Of a stretch of 64,000 bases of DNA, positions 2,925 through 39,383 are shown piece by piece. The notes beneath the pieces were generated by a model, which saw nothing but the letters and a program-made list of their open reading frames with translations, was not told the origin of the DNA and did no database searches. Both the position numbers and the translations under genes were made by a program. Each line of letters begins with the position of its first letter. Position 1 is the first letter of the stretch. The DNA comes from Dioscorea cayenensis subsp. rotundata (lineage: Eukaryota > Streptophyta > Magnoliopsida > Dioscoreales > Dioscoreaceae), in NCBI RefSeq assembly GCF_009730915.1, contig NC_052481.1, positions 22,046,461 to 22,110,460 on the forward strand. Reading direction: 5' to 3'.

Positions 2925-4142
2925 TAGGAATGGGGGTGGGGTGGGGCGGGGCAGGGACAGGGCAGGGCGGGGAATGGGATCCCCGTCCCCATCCCCGCCT
3001 TCACGGGCGGGGATTCCCTGCTAGAAATTCTCAGGGAAAAATCCTCCCCATCACTCCCATGGGGATCCCCGCCACCAAAACATTAATATAAAAAAATTTT
3101 TCTATAAATAACTATAATATTTCTAATCGATTTTATACTATACTATACGCTTAAAAGATGCTTATATACTAATTGAAAATAAAAAATATAATGTATGATG
3201 AAAAAAATAAAAAAATTCTCAACCAAAAGTTTTTACAACATACACATCATATATAAAAATAAAAAAATTCACACAAAATATTTCTCCTAATAAAGTCATA
3301 ATATAATGTTTGATGAAACAACAACATTAAAAGTACAAATAACATAAAGTTTAAAAACTAAATTAAAAATTACAAATCCATTAAATAAAATTCATAATGC
3401 AAAAACTAAGACAATAATTTCATGCTCCATCAATTTGTTTCTTCTTTCTCCAAGTCATTTATATTGAAAAATCCAATTCCACTACTCACTAAAGCATCTT
3501 GACATGATAACTCCTCCTTCAATAATAAACAAAATTGTAAATATATAATAAGATTATAAATAATATCAAGATTAAAGATAAAAATTTTTATAAAAAATCA
3601 TATTTACCTCATCATTCTCATCCTCCTCTTCATCAAATGTAGAACAAATAGCTTGAATTGTTGACCATAAACAAGGATCTTCAAAAATAAAGAAATACAT
3701 AATAATAACTAAAAATATATAAATTTAAAAGAAATACCATATATGTTTTAATGAAATATATAAATTTAAATAGTTAATAAGTTGTATGAAATAATTGTGA
3801 GTTCCATAATAATAACTAAAAATATTAATAAATAAATATTTATTGATTATATATATATATATAATATTATGTTAATGTTGAAATAATTTTTAATAAATAT
3901 ATTTAAAATATATAATATATTTTTTTGGGGAATCCCCGCGGGGCACGGGAACCCGTGCCCCACGGGGAGCGGGGCGGGGATCCTTGTGGGGCGGGGAGAC
4001 CATTCCCCGCCCCGCCCTCATCCCCGCTAGGCGGGGAAAAAAATTTTTTTCCCCGCTCCCGCCCATGGGATGTTCGGGGAATCCCGCCCGTCGAGGCGGG
4101 GCCCCATGGGAACGGGGATTCCCCGCCCCACCCCCATTCCTA
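2925..4142. mobile_element. Non-autonomous hAT-like DNA transposon, 1.2 kb, GC-rich ends
   Basis: Perfect 8-bp target duplications (catggacg) lie at 2917-2924 and 4143-4150. The element starts taggaatgggggtggggtgg and ends with the inverted counterpart ccacccccattccta. An 8-bp duplication together with TA-GG termini fits the hAT superfamily. About 150-230 bp at each end is extremely GC-rich, built from ggggcgggg/ggggatcccc words that can fold on themselves. The 0.9-kb centre is AT-rich and holds no transposase. Short frames in the ends are composition artefacts. Confidence 0.85.
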
Positions 4143-4296
4143 CATGGACGTGGGGTTATTAACTTATTATTATTATTTTATTTTAGGATATATATAGTAT
4201 TGAAAAGTATGAATAACTTATTGTTATTTTAGGATATATATAGTATTTTATTTTAGGATATATAGTATTGAAAAGTATGAATAATGTCCAGATTAA

Positions 4297-5271
4297 CGGG
4301 ATTTTTGGATGCCAAGAGTGGAGTGGTAGTTAGGGGGTATTAGATGCAATCCCTTATTTGGGTGTACATCATTGGGAGTGAGGGGGATTGTGGAGGGAGT
4401 GAGACTCACCCATGTGAGTGAGTCTCAATCACCATGCTTTTGGGTGGATTGCCCAATCCTGGATATAGAAAAGACATATATGCCCCTAAGTTATCTTATT
4501 ATTATTTTCAATGTTATTACAAATATTTATTTTGATAATTAATTAGTTAAATTTTTTTGAATGTGTTACACAAATATAATTAAAAATATCTCATTATAGT
4601 TAATACCATTAATTAGCTAATTACTAGCTAATTAATAATATTAATATTTAAATATAATACTTATAACAAAATTATAGTATTATAAAATTAAATAGTTATT
4701 TTTTATAATTAATTAGTTTATTTTTTTTAATGTGTTACATGAATATAATTAAAAATATCTCATTATAGTTAATATCATTAATAACTAGCTAATTAATAAT
4801 ATTAATATTTAAATATAATACTTATAACAAAATTATAGTATTATTAATTTAAGTAGTTATTATTTATAATTAATTAGTTAGATTTTTTCAATATTTTAAA
4901 AATTATAATTAAAAATAATTCAGTATATTTAACATCATTAATTAATATCTAATTAATGATATTAACATCTTATCCCAAAAATTAGATTGAAATTATAGTA
5001 TACTAAAATTAAATATTTATTTTTCATAATTTAAAAATATATATATTTAAAAATAACTCATTATTATATATACAATATCATTTATATGGATGAGGGTCAT
5101 AATTGTCATTTTATCATATTCACTTTCTTTACTTTTCACATTCCCAATAAATTACACTCTCCAAACCTTACCAACCAAACACATTCTTTATTCTCACTCC
5201 TCCTCCATTACCACTCATGTCACTCCTAATCTACTCCTCCCCTAATCCATTTTTGGCATCCAAACACCCCG
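4297..5271. mobile_element. MITE, 975 bp, copy 1 (TTAA flanks)
   Basis: The ends are inverted: ggatgccaagag near the left end, and ttttggcatccaaacacccc at the right end. TTAA lies on both sides (4293-4296 and 5272-5275). The outer 100 bp or so are conserved and the centre is AT-rich with no coding capacity. A second copy lies inverted at 31686-32485. The GGGTGTTTGGATGCC-type terminus and T/A-rich duplication resemble PIF/Harbinger-derived MITEs. The superfamily is inferred, because Harbinger duplications are normally three bases. Confidence 0.75.
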
Positions 5272-5275
5272 TTAA

Positions 5276-5668
5276 TCTATTGATACTGAGTCTCGGCAAT
5301 TCTTAACTCATGTATAGTGATCATAGATGATCATAGATGAGTAGATATGGTAATTTTAGATTTGTACCATATGATTTGTTTATATTCATTAATTTATTTA
5401 TGAACGTTCTCTCCCAACCATTGGATTGAAATCTAATCTATTAAATGTATTACAATAAAAAGTGAGATAAACAGTAATATTTATAAATAGTGTTATACAA
5501 TAAAAAAAATTTTAATCAATTTTTTTTTTTCTATAACACACCGAACCACCTTTTCACAAATTGGGTACAATATAGCTACACTGTAGATGTCATTATTTGT
5601 GTCGTTTTTGGTTCAATTTTTTTTTTCTTTCTCTACTATTCTATCTCTACTACACTGTAGACACAACG

Positions 5669-5712
<44 letters not shown>

Positions 5713-5957
5713 AGTTCAATTTTAATATTTTAACTATGATCAAAATTAAAATTTACATCGACATTATATACTATTATACTTTAGAAGCAGATCGAGGTAA
5801 CTTTTACTATGATAAGCGAAGTATGACGATGCAGAGAAACAAAACAAAAGGATGAATAATTAATATTCGGTAATAATTTAAGTATGCTTGATCATACATT
5901 ATTGGTTTTACTAGCCAAGGTGGTGACAATTTTTTTTATTTTTATTATTTACTTATT
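5276..5957. other. Intergenic DNA, no gene seen
   Basis: Contains a (TA)n microsatellite at about 5671-5708 and a short direct repeat of gatcatagatga near 5320-5340. Nothing else is supported. Confidence 0.55.
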
Positions 5958-22519: not shown

Positions 22520-23079
22520 TGCTCTTGACCTATTAAATCATGAGTGTTGATGAAAAAGGAGCAAAAGAAGGTTTTACTTCCCATTAATCACTCGCTAATA
22601 GCATGCATCTTAATAATTTTTCTCATATTATTGAATTGGAACTTTGGTGTTCATTTTTAGCATTCAAATCATTTTAAAAAATATTTTTAAATTAACCATA
22701 AATTTAATTAAAAAGGAGAGATACAATAGTAAAATGAAAGAGAATAAAAATACAACACACTATAAATTGATATAAATAATAAAAACGCTATTATTTCAAT
22801 AATCGAACAATTAAGACGTTTGATTATATTAATTGAGATATAAATAAAATTATAAATGCCCCATATTTTTAAAAAAATATAATAAATATATATATATATA
22901 TAACGACACCCATAAAATAACCGCCACTCGGCAAATACGACTATTCATCTAGAGTGAAGTAAGCCAAGATCCACAGAGAAGCTTAGCTGATGTTAGAGTT
23001 GGGTGTTATTTTATTATTATTTTTAAATTAATTTAATTTTTAATAGAATCTCTGACTCGAACATCATACATATGGGAAA

Positions 23080-23720
23080 TTGAATCTAGCATTATCTGTA
23101 GCTATTTACAAGGAATCATTATAGACCTGTGCAACATGGAGATGCCATTCAATTCACAAGAAGAGTGGCAAATAATTGAGGGTCTATAACTTCATTGCAT
23201 CCATGGCTCAAAAAGAAACTTTATATGCTCCATGAGATAACATGCATTGGAAGAAGGCAAAGCTTTTCAGAACTCCATTCCTTTGCTTGTGATCAAACAT
23301 GGAATTCAAAAACCCTTTGACACAACCATTCAATGAAAACCAGACACATTCACACATAAAATATATGTGAAAGTTGGTTTGGTTCAATCATGGGACCCAC
23401 TCACAACTCAAAACTTATCTTTGTGCATTCTTTTCTTCTTCCTCTTGTTCTTCTTGATGATGATGATGAAGTTAATGTTATGTGTTCCATCTGTTTTTAC
23501 TTTGGTTTCATGTGTTTGAACACTAGGAATAAAAGTAAAAGTTCAGTGAATGGAGATGAGAGATCCATGCTGGCTTTTCTTGTCTCTTTTGTTTGATGTT
23601 TTGATTTGATGATACCATGCAGTTGGAGTAGGTGAATTTCATAAATTACTGTGTGCTCTATGTTTGTTGTTTTTGACCAAATTTCACATCACCAAGGATT
23701 TGTCTCACCCATCTTTTTTT
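23080..23720. other. Unusually conserved non-coding island, copy A
   Basis: About 620 bp, 1-1.5 kb upstream of the dioxygenase gene. It differs from the copy at 35540-36185 at only about 16 positions by eye, fewer per base than the coding exons do. A 68-codon plus-strand frame (23390-23596) exists in both copies but shows indels in an aspartate run, no family resemblance and no obvious start context. I do not call it a gene. It may be an enhancer, an ncRNA, or simply a stretch kept alike by gene conversion. Confidence 0.5.
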
Positions 23721-24069
23721 TGGACCACCTAATTAAACAAGTTAATATCAATAAAACTTAAAAGAAGCCTATAAAAAAAAAATTGAATAAACTATCAAAA
23801 ATATATTAAAAAAATAAAAATACAAATACAGAAATAGAGATCAAAACGTTATTAAAAACATAATTGAAACCGGTAACAGTATTGTAAAGTATTATTTATT
23901 AAGACCAGATACTGTATATTAGGTCTCCTATGTGAGAAGCTATAACACACGTGGTATGTATCTATTGTTTCTCGTATTAGTCAATCTTTCATAGTAAATT
24001 TCTAAAAATTATTAAATTTTATAATCGATTTATTTTTATATGTATATCCTTCTAATACTCTATTTAAGT

Positions 24070-24265
24070 TTTTTTTTTTTTGAAAAAAAGATGAACTATT
24101 TCAATTAAAATAAAAAAGTATACAACCTTCCATTAAATAGCAACTAGAAAAACAAAAGCTCCAAAAAGAGTTACAACAATAGACCACTAAAAATGGTGCT
24201 ATAAGAATGGACAAAACAACAAACCACAAAGTTTGGAAAAACAAAAAAACATAATTGAATAGCTT
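24070..24265 (-). mobile_element. Possible LINE 3'-end insertion, minus orientation
   Basis: A T run at about 24067-24082 followed by gaactatttcaattaaaat and about 180 bp is absent from duplicate copy B at the corresponding place (about 36600-36660). A T-rich start on the plus strand suggests an A-tailed retroelement in reverse. Target duplications are not clear. Confidence 0.35.
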
Positions 24266-24668
24266 GGTAGCCACATAGGCGTCTCTCTAGATAATAACAA
24301 ATTAAAGTGGGGAAAAAAATCAAGAGATGGCGTTGATGGTGGTCTATTATTAGTTAGACCGTGTGGAGCATAAAGAGAGTTGAAACGGTGAGTTAATGTT
24401 TATATCCAAATCTCCTAATTTTATTTTCTTTAGTCTAATTGGAATGTAGATAGCTAGCCAAAAGGGAAACATTGGATGCATTTTTATTATAATCCAAATT
24501 ATGAGATTGAGATGTTAATTGAAGATATGGTTATTCCTCACCAACTACATACTATTTCCCGAAAAAAGGCAACCATTTTTGTCCATTAATTAAAGACTTA
24601 TTAAATCCATTTTTATCCATGAGCAGATACCAACAGCACCACCACACACACACACAGAGACACAGAGA

Positions 24669-24922
24669 ATGGAGGAACTCCTGTCAAATGGACACCATGA
24701 AAGCTTGCCAGAAAGCTACATACTGCCAGTGGATAAACGCCCAGATTTGATCATCAACAAAGCCATTCCTGTCATAGATCTTGCTGCTCATAACCATGAA
24801 CAAACTGCCATGCAAATCCTTCAAGCTGGCAAGGAATATGGCTTCTTTCAGGTCTTCTTCTGATCTATTTTTTTTTTTTAATCTCTAATTTCAATAAAAT
24901 ATTGATCTGCATACATACATAC

Positions 24923-24959
<37 letters not shown>

Positions 24960-25991
24960 TATATAAAGGTGGTGAACCATGGAATTGAAGAAGAAGTGAT
25001 AAGAGAGATGCTGAAGATAAGCAAGGAGTTCTTCCAGTTGCCAATTGAAGAGAAGGCTGTGTACTTTTCAGAAGATGCGAACAAGTATCCAAGACTTCAC
25101 ACAAGCACCACCCATGTGAACAAACTGGAGAAAAAATTCTGGAGAGATTATTTCAGGTTTGTCAGCCACCCTGTTAATCCTCAATCCATGGATCAATGGC
25201 CACAAATACCAACCAGTTTCAGGTCCTTAATTTTTTCTTTTCTGTTTATTTATTAATTTGCAACAGAATTAAGTAGCTAAGTAATAATAACTTGTTTGTT
25301 TTACAGAGAGATTGCTCCAAAGTATTCAAAGGTTGCAAGAGAACTGGGATTGAAGATCTTGAAGTTTATTGCTCAAGGACTAAAACTTGATGATAACTAC
25401 TTCAATGGGGAAGTCAGTGATACTTCCATTGTGAACATCAACTTTTACCCACAATGTCCAGACCCAAGTCTGGCACTTGGCTTAATCAGTCACTGTGATC
25501 CAAATCTTATCACCGTTCTTCTCCCAGATGATCAAGTCAATGGCCTCCAAGTCCTTCACCATGGTGATTGGATTGCTGTTGATCCAATTCCCAATGCTTT
25601 TGTCATTAATGTTGGCCATCAATTGGAGGTACATTAATAACTATATATTTTCTGCTTAATTAATTAATTACTTATTGATATAAATATATACTTTGTTGAT
25701 TACTGTTTTTTTTTCCTTCATTTTTTACTGCAGTTTATTACTAATGGGTTATTGAAGAGTGTGGAACATAGAGCAGTGACAAGCTCAACCATGTCTAGGA
25801 TTTCAATTGCAACATTTATTTATCCTAGCTCTGAATGTGTGATTGGACCTGCCAAACAATTGATTGATGAGAAGAATGGTCCAATTTTCAGAGAATTCGA
25901 GTTGAAGGAGTTCATGAGCATTTATCATGGTAGCATTGGTGATACTGCAAACATCATGGATGCTTTCAAAATCAAGGCTTTAAGTTTATAG
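24669..25991 (+). CDS. 2-oxoglutarate/Fe(II)-dependent dioxygenase A (hyoscyamine 6-dioxygenase-like)
   Basis: Four exons: 24669-24851, 24969-25222, 25307-25628 and 25734-25991, all GT-AG, giving 338 residues. The N-terminal DIOX_N domain begins at IPVIDL (residues 33-38) and contains GFFQVVNHGI. The C-terminal double-stranded beta-helix has the complete iron triad His208, Asp210 (HCD) and His265, and the 2-oxoglutarate-binding RIS (Arg275, Ser277). It also has the NFYPQCPDP motif typical of plant DOXC enzymes. Closest in style to hyoscyamine 6-dioxygenase-like proteins of specialised metabolism; the actual substrate is unknown. Such enzymes are soluble and cytosolic. Intron 1 has a long (TA)n tract. 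The gene is the upstream member of a duplicated pair. Confidence 0.93.
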
Positions 25992-26849
25992 TTTATTTTA
26001 TGAGAATAAGACAGCATTGATCTTGCTATGTATTCTTTTCATTTTCAAGTAAACTCTTGAGAAGTTTCATATAATTTGAAGATGATCAAATGAAGTTGAA
26101 GCTTGTCAGTTAATCATTAATAATAAAAATTATAAACTCAAATGATGGATTCCTTGTTGAGAAGACCATTGATGTTTATTTAAATGTGTTCAATGTTTGA
26201 TCAAATATTGTGTGCATTTGAATAGTCTTGGCATTTTAGAAAGATATTATTGTTAATTTTAGTTTATTTAAGAAAAAAAACATATTAAAGACAGTTTCTT
26301 CAGCACGTTCGATATATGGAGTTGCAAAGAAAAACAGTGCTTCTAAAAGTCAACCTTTTAAAAATTTATAAATATACATATGGCCTTTGATTTCTCACAT
26401 TCATAATGGAATAATCATCTCATTATAATTATAGTATTCTTTCTGAGATGAATAAATTATATATTTTATGAGTGATTCAAATATATTTATAAAATACTTT
26501 CATAAATCTCATGTTAATAACTACATATAATTTAATTATTTCATAATAAAAAAACATTTTATTTCTCTTCCAATTCAAAAAGTTGAGAGGGGAATTATAT
26601 AGCTTATCTACATTTATCAATATATATATATGTATATATATATAAACCGTTAATTTGACATCTAAACCCATCTAGTTTGTGTGTGTCGCTGCGCGGCCAG
26701 ATATAAATAATAAATGTAAACTATGGTTGTACTTTCGATGTATTCCAAATTTATTTTAATGAGGTAATTACGTATTACATATGTTTCTTTGTTAGATATT
26801 CTTACATTAGACTTCCATACATTCTAAGATAATTGTACATACGTCATTA

Positions 26850-27650
26850 CATATATCCCAACATTGTATTTATTTCGATCTGTACATATGTTGTTTCTCC
26901 ACCATCCCAAGTACAATACAATAGTAATGCATTTTTCAATGTATTTGAGTATTGTCCTGTTCTTTATTCCGTCTCATCTCGGAACACTGGCCATACTGGA
27001 TACCGCAATGGCATTTTGATATAACGTCATAGGTCTTCAATGTAAAAAACACCCGGTTAGTTGATTATGATCTTCTTCATACATATTATTGAGTACCTAA
27101 GGAAGGACTTTATTAGCGTGTTCGCTTGGTAATTATCATTATCCTCTAATATGTCTTGGAATTTTGGAAGCGCAATTCCTCGGGGTCTTCTATCTTTCAC
27201 AATACACCTACGACACCCTGAAGTACGTATGTTGGCTTCTCATCCACAACCATCATATTCTGCTCTGGCAATTTCAAAATTTTAACACTGCTTGTTATAT
27301 AAAGGGATTTTAACATTATGACAGACTTCTCCCTCTCGTCTTCTTTGGTACCGAGTGATGGTAGACTTAAAAAGTTTACTGATTTGTCACCCACTTTGAT
27401 GATATTTGCACCAAATTTAATTTATTCTGTAATATACTTTATCTTCGAACGTGGTTGTTGTTTCTTCGAGATATACCTTGTATTAATACATCGTGGGTCT
27501 TGACGCCTATCATAGAAGGTTTGTCTGTATGCGTATCTCTTCCTGTTATACATTGTGTTGTACCTGAAACTGGTGTTCGCATATCTATTCCTGTAATGCA
27601 TGTACATGTTAGAAAATGCCATTTTTGCGTCTTATATTAACTGATGGATG
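26850..27650 (-). pseudogene. Fossil geminiviral virion-sense gene (coat / nuclear-shuttle type)
   Basis: Minus-strand translation gives a basic, Tyr/Arg-rich N-terminal part, then a middle part with VKDRRP-like and LPSLGT-like segments, and an end part with NALLLY, the typical closing region of geminiviral coat and nuclear-shuttle proteins. It begins next to the spacer and points away from Rep, as a virion-sense gene should. Whether it derives from a coat protein or a nuclear shuttle protein is undecided. Broken. Confidence 0.6.
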
Positions 27651-27984
27651 GCCATTTATATACATCTAATTGTTCACTATTTCCTGGTATATATTGTACT
27701 CTTCCAGATACTCTATTTTTAAAGATGGTTACCTACTCACCTATACTAAGCATTTTATATGGTTGAACTCCTACTTATACTTATCTTTATTTCTATCTCC
27801 GGTCGTTCAACTGTTACCACGTAGGGGAACTGCATCACAGGCAGCACTATGTTGGCTCTCGAGATATCTCCCAAATAGGCATGTGGTGGGCCCACCTACT
27901 ATTGCAATGCGGAAATACCAAAGGCGAGAACTTTATTTTGAACAGACCAATCCCCAAAGAGTGTAAACCACATATTTATAGTTA

Positions 27985-29091
27985 TGCCACTCATGCCAAA
28001 AAAAATTCAGATTTAATGCGAAATTTTTTTTCCTTACATATCCTAGATGTTCTCTGACAAAGGAAACTGCTCTACAACAACTGCTGGATGTCTCTCTTCC
28101 AAGTAACCGAAAGTTCATACATGTTGCAAAGGAATTACATTATGATGGGAGTCCACACCTGCATGTTTTAATACAGCTTAAGGGTAGAGCTCAGGTCACT
28201 AATCCAAGATTATTCTATCTACATTCAGGTGTTGCATCTATCTCATTCCATCCAAACATACAAAGTGCTAAATCTAATTTAGATGTCAAGGCTTATATTG
28301 AAAAAGGAGGAGATTATATCGATTGAAGTGAGTTTCAGATTGATGGGAGATCTTCCAGGGATGGCAAACATAATTTATCTTTTGTTTATGCTGATGCTTT
28401 AAACTCTGAAACTCCTAACAACGCTTTACAAATTATTAGGGAGAAGGATCAGCGGCCTTTGTTTTACAGTTTCACAATCTTCAAATTTTGAACGTATATT
28501 TGCCAGACAGTTGAAACCTTACATTTCTTATTGAGCTTATTCAATGTTCACAATTACAACATGTATGCAGGCATGGCTTGAGTATAATTTTCAAATTAAT
28601 GCTGCTACGTGGCCTAATAAAAATAATATAATACACAAAGTTAGTTGTCAGCGGCTGACAAGTTTGATCCTTGAGGGGCCAAGCCGTATTAGGAAGACAG
28701 ATTGGGCAAGATCTTTAGGTACGCACAACTACATTTGTGGACATCTAGACTTTAATTCTGCCACATTTCAGAATAATATATTGTACAATGTAATTGATGA
28801 TGTGGCGCCAAATTATCTAAGGATGAAACATTGGCAGGAGTTGATTGGTGCTCAGTGGGATTGACAGACCAATTGTAAGTATGGTAAACCGATTCGAATT
28901 AAAGGTGGAATCCCATCCATCATTCTCTATAATCAGGGACATGATTCAAGCTATAAGGAATACCTGGATAGGTTGGAGAATACAGCATTACGTGACTGGA
29001 CGTTGAAGAATGCCCAATTTGAATTCATAGAGAATCCACTCTATAACACGGACAACAACACTGACTGTGACGGTCTTCTCTTTGCCACTTA
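27985..29091 (+). pseudogene. Fossil geminivirus Rep (replication initiator) gene
   Basis: Plus-strand translation shows the rolling-circle motifs in the right order and spacing: FLTYP (near 28029-28043), the HLHV metal-binding motif (near 28154-28165) and the YIEK catalytic-tyrosine motif (near 28291-28302). The superfamily-3 helicase part follows, with the P-loop region near 28680, YNVIDDV (near 28785) and a [13 protein letters not shown] segment (near 28880-28920). The length of about 1.1 kb matches a begomovirus Rep. In virus life Rep nicks the origin and unwinds viral DNA. This copy is broken by several interruptions and is a fossil. Confidence 0.85.
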
Positions 29092-29099
29092 ATTGTCCT

Positions 29100-29546
29100 T
29101 GCAGCGTCTCCATAGTTATTTCACTTCGTTGTTCATGGATAATAAGACATGTGACATTATCATGGAGACCTAGACTAATATAGGCATATTTTTTTGGGAG
29201 CTGAGTAATCCTTTGTATTTCCGTGTGAAAGATCATATCGACACTTCGACAGACCCTTTCTCCGCAACTGGGACCGCATAATCATCGAATTACATTTCAA
29301 CTACAATCTTCGGCGGGCTTTGCGCTTACACAAATGCTAGATGTTCTTCACCATATGAACAACCTTCCGGCCTCTGAGTGATAGTTTTTTACATGTATGC
29401 TGATGTAATATTATGAACTTTCTACGTAGTTTCAGTGTAATCTCTATTAATTTTGTCATTAGATCTGTCGAACATTTCGTGAGACGGTTTGATCGTAATA
29501 TCCTTGATGTAGAGAATTTGGTCCATGTTCAGTTTGACTTGTATTA
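29100..29546 (+). pseudogene. Fossil geminivirus REn (and overlapping TrAP) region
   Basis: Just past the end of Rep, plus-strand frames show IFFWELSNPLYF and, further on, LHFNYNLRRALRLHK and VISINFVIRSVEHF. These are the conserved blocks of the replication-enhancer protein in their normal order. The overlapping transcription-activator gene should share this stretch but is not clearly readable. Position and order match a begomovirus complementary-sense block. Broken. Confidence 0.75.
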
Positions 29547-29699
29547 GTTTTGATAAAGGGTTGTTCTCTGATGTTTGTCCATTTCCATTACATGTATATG
29601 AGTTGGAAACAATATCTTAAGCTAATACATACATATTTTATTATAGATAACCAACCTTACATTACATACAAATACAACACTTAAACACATATGTTTTTC

Positions 29700-30369
29700 T
29701 AACAACGTAACAACAATCCAAACTACACATCATCAACTGGTATGGTTGATACGGCTCCTTTTGAGGTACCAATATTACCTAAATCCTCAAGATTTATTTT
29801 TTTCTTCAAGCCACTTCTTTCTACGACCGTATACGCTTCGGTGACGTCTTCATCATCTTTACTTGTCGTTGCCACTAATCGTAGCATATGGTATATGGCT
29901 TCTTCGTGTTTCTATAACGCGTTGACGTACTCCAACAAGGGCTGCAGGTTTTCTTCAATGGCTTCTGTAATACATATACCATGAATACATTTAATGAGGG
30001 TGGTTGGCCCGTATATGAGAAATAATAAATACACTGCCATGATCTCCTCCTTCTCCATCTTGTTTACTCATTTCCTTCTCATCGGAGGTATAAATACTTA
30101 TTTTTCTTCCTGTCTACACTTCCTGACGGTCAACTTGTCAACAACAAGCAACTTGTCAGTTCCAATATGTTTAATACCACATGGGACCCGTATTTTGAAT
30201 TTGCTAACCCTTGCTTGCCACTGAATTGATTCTCTCATTCTTATATATTATTTCACTCGAGTAGGTTCCACAACCATTCACATTTTTGAGAAAAGAAAGA
30301 GCAGGGACTTTAATTTGAATGGCCCTATCAAAACTCGACACATAGCAGTACGGACGAGGCGACCATCCG
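29700..30369 (-). pseudogene. Unassigned minus-strand coding-like stretch at the right end of the viral fossil
   Basis: Between REn and the right junction the base composition remains unlike the AT-rich host flank. The minus strand has coding-looking stretches, including a 77-codon one at 30204-30437 that runs over the junction and an acidic one near 29740-29880. I do not recognise the protein. Position after REn suits a virion-sense or second-component viral gene such as a movement protein. It is broken. Confidence 0.4.
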
Positions 30370-30983
30370 TGCTCTTGACCTATTAAATCATGAGTGTTGA
30401 TGAAAAAGGAACAAAAAAAGGTTTTACTTCCCATCAATCACTCGCTAGCATGAATCTTTTTAATTTTTCTCATATTATTGAATTGGAACTTTGGTGTTCA
30501 TTTTTAGCATTCAAATCATTTTAAAAAATATTTTTATGAGATCTCACCTCTGTGTCATTTATTTTTCAGTTCCTATTGTGCATGTCTAGTAACCCGATTT
30601 GAGTTGAGGGCATTTTGATTATTTTGTTCCTTTGACGCTATTGGACTCCTTTATTTTATTAAATTGTTTTCTTTTCTTTTTGAGATTCATGTCATTATTC
30701 TTATTCTTATTTTTATTATTTTTCAATAAGTTGGAGAAGCTTATAATATTATTCTCATTATTACTAATGTGAGAAGGGAAGCTTCTTTTTATTGCTTTTA
30801 TTGTTCTTATTCATATTGGTACTATTTCTATTTTTATTATTTTATTATTTTATTATTATTGTTCTCTTTAATATTGTTATTCTTATTATGATTATCATCC
30901 TTGTGATAATGATTTTCAAAGAGAAGCTTCCATTGGTTTAAATATGATTAGTATTATTATTATTATTAGTAATTTATTATTGA

Positions 30984-31021
<38 letters not shown>

Positions 31022-31685
31022 TGGTGGTTAACTTGAATGAGAAGAAGCTTCTCGTCTCCATGCCTTCCCATCTTCTTCCTAGCTTTTCTCCAAACCGTAC
31101 CTTCTCCAAAAGCTTGAGTTTCATGGTGCTAAGGAAATCAAGGACTTTTCCTCTCTTGATCTCCACTTTTCCATCATCAAGCCAAAGGTAGGTCTTCCAA
31201 GTTTTTCATGGTTAAGCTTTTGGCATTAGGTTTGAGATTTGTTTGGAGAATTTGTTTTGAAGATCTTGTGGTTGATTGGTAGAGCTGTTGCTTTAATTTG
31301 AAGCTCCTTGTATCTAGATTTCAGTTTACCTTGAAAATCCTACTTGTAATCCTTGAAAATATAACAAAATTCTATGTTTTCATTACATTCGCGGGGTTAC
31401 TGTAGCCACACTATAGCACCGGAAATCTTTGGTTATTTCTCTTGTTTCTTTGGTGTATTATGAAGTCTAGAACCTTTGGAATTCCTTGATAACCCTGAAA
31501 TCCAGTTGTGAGCCAAGTTTAGACCTCTTTAGGGTTGCATTGCTTGGTTAGCTAAGGGTTTCATATTTTTGAATTTGTTTGCTTATTCTTATTTGTGTTT
31601 GTAATTGTGGTTGGCTGGTTAGGTGATAAGAACGTGTCGTGCGGCAAGGAGCCAGTGGAAGGATACCCATGGGCTTTTCTCACCT

Positions 31686-32485
31686 AAGTAATGAGGGAGG
31701 AGTGGATTGGGAGTGACATGGGTAATGGAGGAGGAGTGAGAATGAAGAATGTGTTTGGTTGATAAGGTTTGGAGAGTGTAATTTATTGGGAATGAGAAAA
31801 GTAAAAAAAGTGAATATGATAAAATGACAATTATGACCTTCATCCATATAAATGATATTGTATATATAATAATGAGTTATTTTTAATTATATATATTTTT
31901 AAATTATGAAACATGAATATTTAATTTTAGTATACTATAATTTCAATCTAATTTTTGGGATGAGATGTTAATATAATTAATTAGATATATAATAATTAGT
32001 TTTTTTTAATTATATTTTTTTAAAATATTAAAAAAATATAAATAATTAATTATCAAAAATAAATATATAACTTTATAATACTACAACTTCATTCTAATTT
32101 TTTAGATTTAAGCAATAATATCATTAATTATCTATTAACTAATTGTGTTAATTACAAATCAAATTAAAAATAATTTCAATAAAAAAAGTTAACTATAATA
32201 ATTATTTCTTTAGCACAAGAACAACAATGTAATAAAAAATCAAAACATTTAAAAATACCTGGTAAAATATGATATAATATATATATGGGCATATTAGTCA
32301 TTTTATATTCAAGTTGTTCACTCCCCCCACAATCCCCCCAATTGTGTGGTGAGTGAGACTCACTCACATGGGTGAGTCTCACTCCCTCCATAATCCCCCC
32401 TCACTCCCATTGATGTATACCCAAACAAGGGGTTACATCCAATCCCCCCTCATTCCCACTTCAATCTTGACATCCAAACACCCCC
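31686..32485. mobile_element. MITE copy 2, nested in the LTR, inverted relative to copy 1
   Basis: Reverse-complement relative of 4297-5271: the left 180 bp (gtgagaatgaagaatgtgtt and neighbours) matches the right end of copy 1, and the right end has gacatccaaacacccc. The left terminal inverted repeat (about 20 bp) is missing, so this copy is slightly truncated. It has an AT-rich centre without coding capacity. Confidence 0.75.
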
Positions 32486-32930
32486 TGAGTGAGATTAATT
32501 ATCCATAACTTTACTAGGAAATTACCTATATATATACATTATATTACTTGAGTAATGTCTTGTTGGCTTTTATATTTGAATCAAGTTGTTTATTGCCTTG
32601 AAATGAGATTATTTATTGATGCTTCATGTTTGTAAAGTAATATTTTTCAAAGGAAAGGATTTTCGGATTGATACTTAACTTGTAAGTTGTAATTTGATTT
32701 GTGTTAAAAAAAACTTTGGACATGCTTGTATGTTCATCATTTCCTTGTGGAAATGGCAGTGATTCGTGATTATTAAGTTTTATGCTGGATATTGGACTCT
32801 GTGTGGAGTATACTTGAATTATTTAGTTTGTATGGTGTTATCCTACTGCAGTAGACGGTCTCTACTGCCAGCCTTGTAGAGGTGGCGTAGTAGACCGGCT
32901 GATCTTTCATTGGTCTAGTTCAGGTGAAAG

Positions 32931-33142
32931 TAGGGATGGCAATTTGTATCCTACGTACCCGATGGGTATACCCGTACCCGGTTAAAGAAGATATTACCCT
33001 CTTTGACCGGGTATGGATACGGGTAAGGGTATTACTCGTTATTTTTTAAGCGGGTACGGGTCGGGTAAGGGTATGCCCCTACCCTACCCGTACCCTTACC
33101 CGATGAAGAGGATACGGGTTTTACCCGTACCAGTACCCTTAC

Positions 33143-33216
<74 letters not shown>

Positions 33217-34050
33217 GATACATTTTCATTGTTATTAACTAGAAAATAATACTTTAAATTTTCTCTTAATATATTATTTTGAATTTTATTTAATTTTTAT
33301 ATTTATATTTGATATAGCATAATATTTTTTTGATATAAATATTAAGAATCACAATTAAATTAAAAAAAATTAAACATTATGAAATAAATATTAAAATAAT
33401 GTTATAATAATTTATTCTATAAATTATAAAAACATCCTAAAAATAAGATACTAATAAAAAATCAATTGGTTATGAGAATTACTTATACTGTTTTTTATAT
33501 TCAAAATCTCACTAAACATTTATTAAATTTGAAACTCTATAAAATATAAATAGTAGATATATAAAAAAATTTAAAACAACAACCAAGATAGTTAAACAAA
33601 AACAAAAAAAAAAGGTAGAGTTACCATTGAGCCCTAAATAGACGTCAATGAAAATCAACAAACTTGTTATTTTGTATAAATTAATTTGTTACATATAACT
33701 TTTATGTGATTATATAATTTAAGATAAACAAATATATATCAACTTGTAATTTTGAATTTATGGACATGTGTTTAAACATTGTATTATTGCTGTTGTTGTT
33801 GTTTAAATTTATATTTATTTCGATAATTTGAATAACGGGTAAGCAGGTACCCTGTGGGTATACCCGTACTCTTAAATTTTTATTTAATAAGATAATTTGA
33901 ACAATGGGTAAGTTGGTATATCTGTACCCTGTGAGTAAGGGTAAGGATATGATTTTTTATACCCTGGAGGGTACGGGTATGAGATAGGGTTACGGGTACG
34001 GGTAAGGGTTTTGGCATACCCTACCCATACCCTACCCGTTGACATCCCTA
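32931..34050. mobile_element. Non-autonomous hAT element, 1.1 kb, nested in the LTR
   Basis: Starts tagggatggcaa and ends ttgacatcccta (imperfect terminal inverted repeats of the Ac-like hAT type). It is flanked by 8-bp imperfect duplications ggtgaaag (32923-32930) and ggtgggag (34051-34058). About 200 bp at each end is made of gggtacgggtaaggg-like words. A (TA)n microsatellite covers about 33145-33207. There is no transposase. Confidence 0.85.
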
Positions 34051-35539
34051 GGTGGGAGTGTAGAGCCCTAATTGGATGCCATCGGGGAGCGGGAAGCACC
34101 ATACTATGAACTGATGGGTCAACGTTAAAGACATGAGTGTGTGTGTTGGGAGTTGTGTATTCTTTTGAATTATTGTTTCCTTGCTTTTGAGTTGAGATTT
34201 ATCTTATTGTATTTATCTTTGTTTGTCATCTTGAATTTTATGATGAGAGGGCGAAGCCCAGCTGTCACTCTTAGGAGAGCAGTCTCCCATAAATTTGATT
34301 TGGCACGAGTATTATGATTACTTATTCGAAAATCATGTTATTAAGTTGTTAAAATTGTATTTGAAACTATTTTGATTTATATGTTTTATGGTGAATGATT
34401 TGATTCATGATTAGCTTGTCTTCCTAATTTGGAACCCTATGTTCAATATTTTAGGGTTTTGAAGTGGTAAAACGCTAGTTGAGGTAGATTGCCTACTTGA
34501 CTCTATCTTTTTATATTACTATATTACAGTTTGCTATATTAAGACTCATGCTCTAAGCTAGTTATCTTATTAGTAAAATATCATTTTAAAGATTCATGTT
34601 TATTTTATTTTAGTATATTCCTGGTAGAGTTGTGCTAACCTCCCCTTACTGAGTAACTTTAGTTGATCACCCTTCTTTCTTCCTCCCAACTTGTTGTAGG
34701 TAGTAGGTGCGGTTGTGTGGCAGCGTGGTGGCCATTTACTACTGTCCTATCTTCTATGTTTTTGTCCTCTCAGTTCATGTATGTTCATTTTGGTCATGCA
34801 CATGTTATTGAGTCTTGGATCCACTAGTATGTAGAGAACCATGTTGCATGATTTGTATGTTTGTCTAATTTCTTGGAAACTTCGTTGCACTTGTGATCAG
34901 TACAGTTCTTGAACTCTACTATTAGGTCATGTTGTTGATGTTTCTCTTACATACATTTAAATTTCCCTATTTTTGTATGTTTTTGTTAGAGGTTGTTGAT
35001 TCCAGGTTTGTTGGTTGACCTTGCGGTGACTCGATAGTTGAGTTGTAGGGTACCCCTCCTCGGATTGCCGCGGCGATTGTCGTGTCCGCTGGGCCTGCAG
35101 GTCGGGCCGTGATAATTTTTTAATTAACAACAAATTTAATTAAAAAGGAGAGATACAATAATAAAACGAAAGAAAATAAAAATACAACCCACTAGAAAAT
35201 TGATATAAATGATAAAAGCGTCCTTGTTTCAATGATCTTATAATTAAGACACTTGATTTTTACATGAGATCGAGATTAAATTTTTTTTAATATAAATTTG
35301 AGATAAAAATGAACATGTAAGTGGTGTGATTTATAACACTGTTAAAAATATATAATAAAAATAAAAACAGATACAGTGACAATAATCGCCACTCGGCAAA
35401 TAGGAGTATTCATCCTGAGTGAAGTGAGCCAAGATCCACAGAGAAACTTAGCCGATGTTAGAGTTGGGTGTTATTTTATTTTAATTTAATTTAATTTTTA
35501 ATAGAATCTCTGACTTGAGCATCATACATATGGGAAATT

Positions 35540-36185
35540 GGGAATTGAATCTAGCATAATCTGTAGCTATTTACAAGGAATCATTATAGACCTGTGCAAC
35601 ATGGAGATGCCATTCAATTCACAAGAAGAGTGGCAAATAATTGAGGGTCTATAACTTCATTGCATCCATGGCTCAAAAAGAAACTTTATATGCTCTATGA
35701 GATAACATGCATTGGAAGAAGGCAAAGCTTTTCAGAACTCCATTCCTTTGCTTGTGATCAAACATGGAATTCAAAAACCCTTTGACACAACCATTCAATG
35801 AAAACCAGACACATTCACACATAAAATATATGTGAAAGTTGGTTTGGTTCAATCATGGGACCCACTCACAACTCAAAACTTATCTTTGTGCATTCTTTTC
35901 TTCTTCCTTTTGTTCTTCTTGATGATGATGAAGTTTGTGTTATGTGTTCCATCTGTTTTTACTTTGGTTTCATTTGTTTGAACACTAGGAATAAAAGTAG
36001 AAGTTCAGTGAATGAAGATGAGGGATCCATGCTGGCTTTTCTTGTCTCTTTTGTTTGATGTTTTGATTTGATGATACCATGCAGTTGGAGTAGGTGAGTT
36101 TCATAAATTACTGTGTGCTCTATGTTTGTTGGTTTTGACCAAATTTCAGCTCACCAAGGATTTGTCTCACACATCTTTTTTGACT
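35540..36185. other. Unusually conserved non-coding island, copy B
   Basis: Counterpart of 23080-23720, with the features described there. The 67-codon frame at 35855-36058 is the partner of the 68-codon frame in copy A. Confidence 0.5.
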
Positions 36186-37042
36186 ACCAAAATAAACTAG
36201 AAGTTAATAATAAAACTTAAAACTTAAAAGCAGCCTTTTAAAAAAATTTGTATAAACCATTAAAATATATTAGAAAAAATAAAAATACAAATACACTAAT
36301 TGAGATCAAAATACCATTAAAAACATAATTGAGACTTGTAACAATATTGTAGAACAATATTTAGTAAGATCAGATACTAAAATTAAGCTTTAGTACAAGT
36401 CTACTGTATGAAAAATTATATTTTTCATACATTTATAATTGCATGGCAAAGTAATTTATTATCATAAAATTATAATATCTGATATATAATTTTTTGTGTA
36501 TTTGACAAGCACTTGTCACTCCACATACTTTTCTCATATAATAAATTTTTAAAAATCATTAAGCGATAATAACAAATGCATCTATATTTTTATATATTTT
36601 TTTGATTTTATTGAATTGAAGGGTGCTTATCACTTGTTTGAAAAAAATTGAGAAGTATGTCAGCCACAGAGGTGTCTCTGAAAAAAAAAAACAGACAATA
36701 AAATTTTCAGGAGATGGCGTTGATGGTGGTCGATTAGTTAGACTGTGTGGAGCATAGAGAGTTGAAACTATGACTTAATGATCATATATATCCAAAATCT
36801 CCTAATTTGATTTTCTTAACTCTAATTGGAATGTAAATAGCTAGCCAAAAGGGATATATTTGATGCATTTTTATTATAATCCAAAATTATGAGATTGAGA
36901 AGTTAATTCAATTAAAGATATGGTTATTCCTCACCGACCAACTACTATTCTGGGAAAAGCTGCCATTTTTGACCATAATATTGAAGATTTATAAAAGTAC
37001 ATTTTTATCGAGAATAGATAACAACAACACAAACACAGAGAC

Positions 37043-37077
<35 letters not shown>

Positions 37078-37080
<3 letters not shown>

Positions 37081-37330
37081 GAGAAACTCCTCTCAAATGG
37101 TCACCATGAAAGCTTGCCAGAAAGCTACATACTGCCAGTGGATAAACGCCCAGGTTTGATCATCAACAAAGCCATTCCTGTCATAGATCTTGCTGCTCAC
37201 AATCATGAACAAACTGCCATGCAAATCCTTGAAGCTGCCAAGGAATATGGCTTCTTTCAGGTTCTCTCTTGATCTATTACTATTTTTATCTCTAATAATT
37301 ACAATAAAACTATTATTGATCTGCATGTAT

Positions 37331-37380
<50 letters not shown>

Positions 37381-38438
37381 CTTAAGGTGGTGAATCATGG
37401 AATTGAAGAAGAAGTGATAAGAGAGATGCTGAAGATAAGCAAGGAGTTCTTCCAGTTGCCAATTGAAGAGAAGGCTGTGTACTTTTCAGAAGATGTGACG
37501 AAGTTTCCAAGACTACACACAAGCACCACCCGTGTGAACAAACTGGAGAAAAAGGTCTGGAGAGATTATTTCAAGTTTGTTTGTCATCCTGTTGATCCTC
37601 AATCCATGGATCAATGGCCACAAAGACCAACCGGTTTCAGGTCCTTAATTTTTTCTTTTCTGTTTATTTATTTGCAACAGAAATAAGAATTTTTTCTTTT
37701 CTGTTTGTTTATTTGCAACAGAAATAAGTAGTTAGATTATAAAAACTTGTTTGTTTTACAGAGAGATTGCTCCAAAGTATTCAAAGTTTGCAAGAGAACT
37801 GGGACTGAAGATCTTGGAGTTTATTGCTCAAGGACTGAAACTTGATGATAACTACTTCAATGGAGAACTCAGTGATGGTACTTCCATTGTAAACATTAAC
37901 TATTACCCGCAATGTCCAGACCCAAGTCTAGCACTTGGCTTACTGAGTCACTGTGATCCAAATCTCATCACCGTTCTTCTCCCGGATGATCAAGTCAATG
38001 GCCTCCAAGTCCTTCACCATGGTGATTGGATTTCTGTTGATCCAATTCCCAATGCTTTTGTCATTAATGTTGGCCATCAATTGGAGGTATATTAACAACT
38101 GTATATTTTCTGCTTAATTAATTAATTACTTGTTGGAATAATTAAATATATATTTTGTTTACCTTGTTTTTTCATCATTTTTACTGCAGTTTATTACTAA
38201 TGGGATACTAAAGAGTGTGGAACACAGAGCAGCGACAAGCTCAGCCATGTCTAGGATTTCAATTGCAACATTCATTTATCCTAGCTCTGAATGTGTGATT
38301 GGACCTGCCAAACAATTGATTGATGAGAATAATGGTCCAATTTTCAGAGAATTCAAGTTGAAGGAGTTTCTAAGCATTTATAATGGTCACATTGGTGATA
38401 CTGCAAACATTATGGATGCTTTCAAAATCAAGGCTTGA
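37078..38438 (+). CDS. 2-oxoglutarate/Fe(II)-dependent dioxygenase B (hyoscyamine 6-dioxygenase-like)
   Basis: Four exons: 37078-37260, 37387-37640, 37762-38086 and 38190-38438, with the same intron positions and phases as copy A, giving 336 residues. The iron ligands are His209, Asp211 and His266, with RIS at 276-278, so it should be active. Differences from A include one extra codon (SDGTS instead of SDTS), a charge change at residue 3 and an earlier stop (KIKA instead of KIKALSL). The leader contains a (GA)n run ending just before the ATG, and intron 1 has (CA)n/(TA)n. Intron 2 carries a local duplication of about 45 bp. Substrate unknown, possibly split between the two copies. Confidence 0.93.
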
Positions 38439-39383
38439 AGTTTATAGCTTATTTTATGAGAATAAGACAGCATTGATCTTTGCTATAGATGTACTCTTGT
38501 CATTTTCAAGGAAACTCCTGAGAAGTTTCATATACTTTGAAGATGATCACATGAAGTTGAAGCTTGTCAGTTAATCATTAATAATAAAAATTATAAACTC
38601 AAATGATGGATTCCTTGTTGAGAAGATCATTGATGTTTATTTAAATGTGTTCAATGTTTGATCAAATATTGTGTGCATTTGAATAGTCTTGGCATTTTTG
38701 AAAGATATTATTGTTAATTTTAGTTTATTTAATAAAAAGAAAAACATATTAAAAACAGTTTCAGCACGTTTGATATTTGGAGTTGCAAAGAAAAACCGTG
38801 CTTCTAAAAGTCAACCTTTTAAAAATCAATAAATATACATATGGCTTTGCTTTCTCGCATTCATAGTGGAATAATCATCTCGTTATAATTATATATAGTA
38901 TTCTTTCTGAGATGAATAAATTAAATATTTTACTAGTGATTCAAATCTATTTCTAAAATACTTTTTTTTTTAAAATAAATTTCTAAAATACTTTCATAAA
39001 TCTCGTGTTTATAACTACATACAATTTAATTATCTCACAATAAATAATTAATATTTTATTTCCTTTGTAATTCAAAAGTTGAGAGCTCAATCCTGCAGCT
39101 TATTTATATTTATCAATATATATATGCAATTTATTTCAATGTTGATCACCAATCTAATGAGAGTTTTTTTATATTGCACTCTTTTGTTATTTATTATCAA
39201 AATATTTAATAAATTTCTCATTTTTTTTTATCATTAGAGTAATTGGTTGCTACTTCGTACTTTAGGGTTACAAGTATCTCATAAATTATTTTAAACTTTT
39301 AAAGATAATTTTTTTAATGCTATAAGCTCTAATTTTAACTGAGAATATATATATATATATATATATATATAAGTTTATGAATG

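Follow-up and report, generated by a model that had tools for sequence, protein, structure and literature searches.

Geminivirus-like DNA flanked by direct copies of a host gene segment in yam, and recurrence of this layout elsewhere in the genome

Results

A viral segment fills the gap between two host copies

We found that a host segment of 4.1 kb, which carries an oxygenase gene, is present in two copies in direct orientation on chromosome C11 of Dioscorea cayenensis subsp. rotundata, with geminivirus-like DNA between them. The limits of host homology coincide with the viral ends, 26647 and 30371, in agreement with an earlier note that had placed a viral fossil at the joint of a duplication. 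Positions refer to the window, i.e. the whole 64,000-nucleotide stretch that was analysed (C11:22046461-22110460, inside a 584 Mb assembly). The same layout was found at a second locus, on C5, and a short direct repeat at a third, on C1045. Endogenous geminiviruses being already known, it is the recurrence of host copies flanking viral DNA that lifts the finding, and virus insertion and host duplication may be linked.

The two host copies

Copy A occupies 22520 to about 26646 on the plus strand. Copy B, on the same strand, consists of 30370-30536, which matches 22520-22689 (94.7% identity in the window self-comparison; 96.4% over 167 ungapped columns), and of 35115-39125, which matches 22683-26629 (83%, gaps counted). 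The copies differ by 13%. Thus both copies that the earlier note had described were recovered, not however as single uninterrupted ones: copy B is split by a transposon-like insert of 4.58 kb (30537-35114, flanked by ATTTTTA and ATTTTTT), which the note had not mentioned and which is absent from copy A. Pieces related to this insert were also seen in L025 (C200), in L027 (C6:5.74M), where the relative stops at the equivalent of 35116, and in the window itself at 4238-5241. The gradual fading of copy A and the sharp start of copy B were as had been claimed: the alignment of A to B ends at 26629 and is followed by a TA repeat (about 26630-26646), while the left limit of B is sharp at 30370.

Copy A contains a 2-oxoglutarate/Fe(II) oxygenase gene, with exon pieces within about 24594-25991 (PF03171, E 1e-20 and 1.2e-5; PF14226, E 7e-5, under its cut-off). 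The exon that was tested is kept in copy B, with 92% protein identity. When it was searched against the genome, the 134 matches listed included just two close ones, A (100%) and B (92%), the next by score being at 46%; a wider tandem array is therefore not visible here. No third host paralogue was close enough, among the matches listed, to serve as a guide to the ancestral flank. Rfam and tRNA scans of the window gave no matches.

The viral segment is a fusion of two modules

The whole gap, 26647-30371, is homologous to other viral copies in the genome, and is therefore endogenous geminivirus-like DNA throughout; it has the host unit on both sides, within C11. It is a fusion of two viral modules, with the joint at 27953/27954, rather than one genome. 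The gap had been described as begomovirus-like, with a structural gene, Rep and REn. Its viral nature, Rep and REn were borne out; the structural gene is more plausibly the shuttle-protein half of a DNA-B-like component, in an element made of two modules. A reading as a Helitron or other transposon was set aside, as no shared ends were seen.

The first, DNA-B-like module (26647-27953, minus strand) comprises a broken shuttle-protein (BR1/coat family) gene and its upstream region, with copies elsewhere. The PF00844 match at 27197-27421 (minus strand, E 2.3e-4) is below the Pfam cut-off, as are the BR1/coat matches of the C4 and L051 copies, and this family lumps BR1 with the coat protein. The sister copies L045 and L051 carry pieces of the BL1 movement protein (PF00845, E 7.8e-6 and 2.7e-24, both above cut-off), which adjoin the shuttle-protein half past the point where the window copy is cut. 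Because of these adjoining pieces we read 26647-27953 as the putative shuttle-protein half of a DNA-B-like component, the window retaining, with its weak match below cut-off, only the BR1/coat-family side of the facing BR1-BL1 pair.

The second, DNA-A-like module (27954-30371, plus strand) comprises Rep pieces at 27982-28326, 28535-28864 and 28865-29092, followed by REn. The Rep catalytic domain was unambiguous in the first piece (PF00799, E 7.7e-40, 135.8 bits against a cut-off of 24) and a weak PF08283 match (E 0.009) was found in the second, while the third matched a retroviral Gag family instead, below cut-off; all three share one stretch of homology with other viral copies. Rep is broken: its open pieces are separated and lie in two frames, and the last two are divided by a stop. 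Broken genes are usual, though not universal, among endogenous geminivirus-like elements. REn was placed at about 29075-29535 with the help of the C4 copy, whose homologous stretch gave a PF01407 match (E 9.6e-25). A remnant of a small virion-sense reading frame, without Pfam match, lies at 29723-30063 (minus strand), presumably on the side where the coat protein is expected. Reading frames of this kind, of about 90-116 codons, recur in other Rep-unit copies (L007 662-1012, also without Pfam match, L023, L025 and L028). The right end of the module (30345-30371, plus strand) is the left side of the origin stem-loop and overlaps host copy B by 2 nt (TG).

Related copies are numerous. We obtained at least 140 genome matches to the geminivirus Rep domain (best 150 of 163 candidates scored), some of them neighbouring pieces of one broken gene, at least 47 to the first module (query 26645-27900) and at least 45 to the second (query 29100-30369). 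In view of the Rep-domain matches, the fossil itself is of a known kind. Elsewhere the second module occurs in tandem, the equivalent of 30371 being separated from the next equivalent of 27954 by about 92 to 100 bases that include the origin, in a unit of about 2.5 kb. Among the copies read, the 27953/27954 joint was found only in the window and at C4:11143960. This second fusion copy (C4:11143960-11147849, L021-L022) lies in other host DNA and passes through the origin into a second Rep start.

The viral ends

Viral sequence goes on to the left of 26647 in all seven other copies that were read there, C4 among them, so the left viral end in the window, which adjoins the TA repeat, is a truncation. 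The C20 copies, none of which starts before 26830, are outside this count. In the window and at C4 the match begins at the same point, 26650, as the left end of a mobile element might, yet this possibility was rejected since all seven copies extend further left.

On the right, the window match ends at the first base of the origin motif, whereas C4 runs on into the complementary sequence of the geminivirus origin motif, GTAATATTA. We surveyed where viral copies end, on one side of the origin and with queries ending there. For the second module (25 right ends, including the window), 10 pass through the origin, 9 stop at it and 6 stop elsewhere. The 9 represent five independent events, one host flank being common to five C10 copies (an internal deletion precedes the end in two of them), and the 6 also represent five. 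Of the first module, 10 other copies were read: 6 stop at the origin, which count as four events since three C20 copies have their flank in common, and the other 4 end elsewhere. For both modules together, about 9 of 18 independent junctions lie, by eye, at the origin stem-loop. The viral origin is thus a recurrent end of viral copies in this genome, and since many copies end there anyway, the sharp right end in the window needs no tie to the duplication. Rep nicks at the geminivirus origin motif, so that nicked linear DNA, a presumed intermediate, would be a natural source of such ends.

Viral sequence to the right of copy B, which the earlier note had named as speaking against a link between the two events, was found neither within the window at E 1e-8 nor among the genome matches listed.

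Host repeats at other viral loci

Flanks on both sides were compared at 10 other loci, and further flank searches (C4, C1:2.93M, C12, C20:17357, C7 and C1514, about 40 candidates scored each) brought the total to 13. In the first 10, direct repeats were found at C5, C1045, C7 and C20:17357; no flanking repeat was found at C4, C200, C1:17.16M, C6:5.74M, C10:2.65M or C11:16.46M, where some of the flanks compared were short (0.8 kb on one side for C11:16.46M). The further searches gave no nearby second copy of the C4 flank and, among the matches listed, no repeat for C1:2.93M. The tally for the 13 loci is one kb-scale repeat, one short repeat, four uninformative loci and seven without repeat, several of the tests being weak.

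The C5 locus (C5:30230622-30237658) has the layout of the window, in that a viral fragment is flanked on the left and right by a 2.6 kb unit of unrelated host DNA (30230622-30233192 on the left, 30235366-30237657 on the right). In the coordinates of that C5 stretch, the host limits are at 3193 and 5367 and the viral limits at 3174-3203 and 5346-5392, each viral limit varying over some tens of bases according to which locus served for comparison. A genome search with the C5 unit gave five candidates, all scored: the unit itself, the right copy, a dispersed insert of small size, and a third copy (30238411-30239649) that is partial and older. The third copy starts at most about 750 bases past the second, a gap too small for the virus.

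At C1045, a 49 bp host direct repeat, 94% identical, was found at L023 5637-5684 and 9214-9262. Its right copy comes immediately after the origin-side viral end. On the left the viral limit could be narrowed only to 5685-5831, so that abutment on this side is partly assumed. In the window and at C5, direct host repeats thus abut the insert at either end, and so they do at C1045 with one end assumed; their lengths are 4.1 kb, 2.6 kb and about 50 bp. As repeat length is not fixed, this is not insertion of the transposase or integrase type.

Three other candidates were set aside. At C7 a 220 bp direct repeat abuts one viral end, but its second copy is separated from the virus by 1.2 kb of dispersed repeat; the C20:17357 repeat is also dispersed, as is, among the matches listed, the C12 flank. 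The C1514 flank has scattered local copies (66-78%) on both sides. Unplaced C1230, near 7590, is homologous to the host flank of C1514:29011 as far as the viral end, beyond which it differs. It was not retained as an empty site for C1514, because homology ends at the viral end and the other side is unmatched (no match in the 1.3 kb to the left of the C1514 virus, weak repeats further right); it is possibly a rearranged or empty counterpart.

We also asked how often random segments have direct repeats within 25 nt of both ends, and found this for 18 of 200,000, the sources including the window and C5, and the 18 being pooled with the viral segments themselves. In this control the left end of C1045 was set from its own repeat, and the control does not address insertion with deletion into an older tandem pair.

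Divergence of host copies and viral DNA

Strict noncoding divergence between copies A and B was 0.152 without 23041-23640 and 0.112 with that stretch. Over 349 codons, with one stop-bearing codon per copy omitted, dS was 0.133 (26.5 differences in 217.5 sites) and nonsynonymous divergence 0.043. Within 23041-23640, only 12 of 597 sites differ from about 35500-36100, against 15-20% on both flanks, a low divergence that resembles gene conversion. At 24261-24649, 73 of 375 sites differ, and from about 23880 to 24260 the copies are barely alignable. This mosaic makes later gene conversion and replacement likely. Per copy, host divergence in the window averaged 0.067-0.076, with 0.028-0.103 for single segments.

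The viral copies of the window and C4 differ at 398 of 3,159 sites (11 stretches). Where outgroup copies agree, the window copy has 78 private changes and C4 has 158, a two-fold gap between the loci; the window share is about one-third of the 0.138 distance to C4, i.e. roughly 0.045. By codon position, in five framed pieces, the private changes number 9, 8 and 14 in the window and 18, 22 and 19 in C4, a roughly even spread as expected for decay after integration. Average host and viral divergences in the window are within 1.7-fold, the host copies being higher, so that the duplication may predate the viral DNA. The C5 host units diverge by 0.102 in their left part and by 0.044 in their right part, or 0.022-0.051 per copy. 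The C5 viral copy is at 0.12 from the closest of the four relatives compared, and carries a private change at 42 of 1,410 sites. Judging from these divergences, the ages appear similar, the window duplication being perhaps older and that of C5 not. This dating is weak because of gene conversion and of the two-fold difference in private changes between the window and C4.

Discussion

The explanation that we favour, while giving it slightly less than an even chance, is that a single event both inserted the virus and duplicated its target. Geminivirus DNA, as a linear piece in which two bipartite begomovirus-like components were fused and of which one end lay at the replication origin (nicked there by Rep), would have been joined to the ends of a broken chromosome of a yam-like plant. 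In mending this break, by a pathway that we can only suppose, the plant would have duplicated local host DNA and left the virus between direct 4.1 kb copies with the oxygenase gene; the outcome would be, in effect, a very long target-site duplication. One event is favoured because just two new joints are needed and because C5 and C1045 are also explained. It is supported by the coincidence of both host-homology limits with viral ends, the left limit being set independently by the sister copies, by the recurrence of the layout at C5 with unrelated host DNA, by the C1045 repeat, whose right copy lies beside the origin-side end, and by the rarity of repeats near both ends of random segments. The presence of just two close copies of the oxygenase exon, among the matches listed, and the comparable average divergences of virus and host (no more than 1.7-fold apart in the window and alike in magnitude at C5) also argue for it. 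The earlier note had proposed that viral DNA was either captured as filler or, by its replication after integration, helped to make the duplication, the second route being purely conjectural here. The recurrence at C5 and C1045 supports a link between insertion and duplication without proving it, while the seven negative loci of 13 and the older look of the window host copies weaken both this link and the single event. The single event is also weakened by the older third copy at C5, which left no room for virus before it, the varying viral limits at C5 and the partly assumed abutment at C1045.

A serious possibility is that the host DNA was already duplicated in tandem, in a unit exceeding the part that is still shared, and that a later viral insertion was accompanied by deletion of the old joint. 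Such a deletion, spanning the joint, makes the exact coincidence of limits automatic. The window dating, in which the host copies look on average older than the viral DNA, and the third, older C5 copy without virus before it fit this sequence of events better than a single one, and the scattered local copies on both sides of the C1514 flank are in keeping with it. It requires, however, an extra event and a joint-spanning deletion at two independent loci and leaves the repeat of about 50 bp at C1045 unexplained, and the dating on which it draws is subject to the same gene conversion and two-fold difference in private changes.

That the viral DNA was filler copied from another endogenous locus, rather than from free virus, during repair of an unrelated break with duplication appears improbable. 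Filler is often copied from elsewhere in plant break repair, and C4 is the only other copy read with the same DNA-B/DNA-A fusion joint; against this, the window copy ends at the origin whereas C4 passes through it, and the two have no host flank in common. An assembly artefact, in which two haplotypes or unrelated contigs were joined at viral repeats, might be suspected in a genome with many unplaced contigs and repeated viral copies, but is very improbable given the 13% difference between copies A and B, the private insert of copy B, the same layout at C5 and the finding of no unplaced contig close to the window's unit among the matches listed.

If insertion and duplication were indeed one event, origin-ended geminivirus integration might repeatedly make long host target duplications, from tens of bases to several kb, and hence be a source of host gene duplication; we consider this generalisation possible but rather doubtful. 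Were it true, viral insertion would join the causes of plant gene duplication. A parallel is offered by Agrobacterium T-DNA, linear DNA that is nicked by a protein, is precise at one end and ragged at the other, and is inserted by host repair, sometimes with a duplicated target. By analogy, the insertion in the window may resemble a T-DNA insertion with rearrangement of the target; the DNA source and the nicking protein differ.

Yam endogenous geminivirus-like elements, EGV1 and EGV2, have been described, with a Rep kept by selection (PMC5014472, Filloux et al. 2015). According to the accessible text of that paper, they consist, like the viral segment of the window, of integrated Rep and REn remnants, with the coat protein gene undetected; they too have a tandem unit (2,642 bp in EGV1) and an origin-like hairpin, which in EGV1 carries TAATATTAC. 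In contrast to their selected Rep, that of the window is broken, and the viral segment of the window differs from them, as there described, in that its Rep half is joined to a DNA-B-like one and in lying between host-unit copies. Clustered Rep loci and potential nuclear shuttle proteins were reported in Dioscorea alata (PMC7758297, Sharma et al. 2020), and the accessible parts of the two studies place the yam elements inside the begomoviruses in one and basal to them in the other (PMC5014472, PMC7758297). PMC7758297 also mentions, in Camellia, a region holding rep and HSP70 for which a duplication subsequent to integration is considered probable; there, as far as the accessible text goes, virus and host gene were probably duplicated together, whereas in the window it is the host segment alone that is present twice. 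A 2011 study of gene transfer from circular single-stranded DNA viruses describes, in its accessible part, viral copies that spread with their flanks by segmental duplication, and a geminivirus-related transposon without obvious target site duplications (PMC3198968).

A literature search that covered titles, the openings of abstracts and few subscription papers, with older tobacco work outside its scope, gave no report of host target duplications at endogenous geminiviruses. In the sources so covered, the entry of geminiviruses into plant chromosomes and its effect on host DNA are little described. Recurrent host copies flanking virus, together with ends at the origin, make the integration route testable by comparing relatives. 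Five viral copies on C10 (near 2.07, 2.10, 2.65, 2.68 and 3.16 Mb) have a common right host flank and seem to have spread by later host duplication or to be assembly duplicates.
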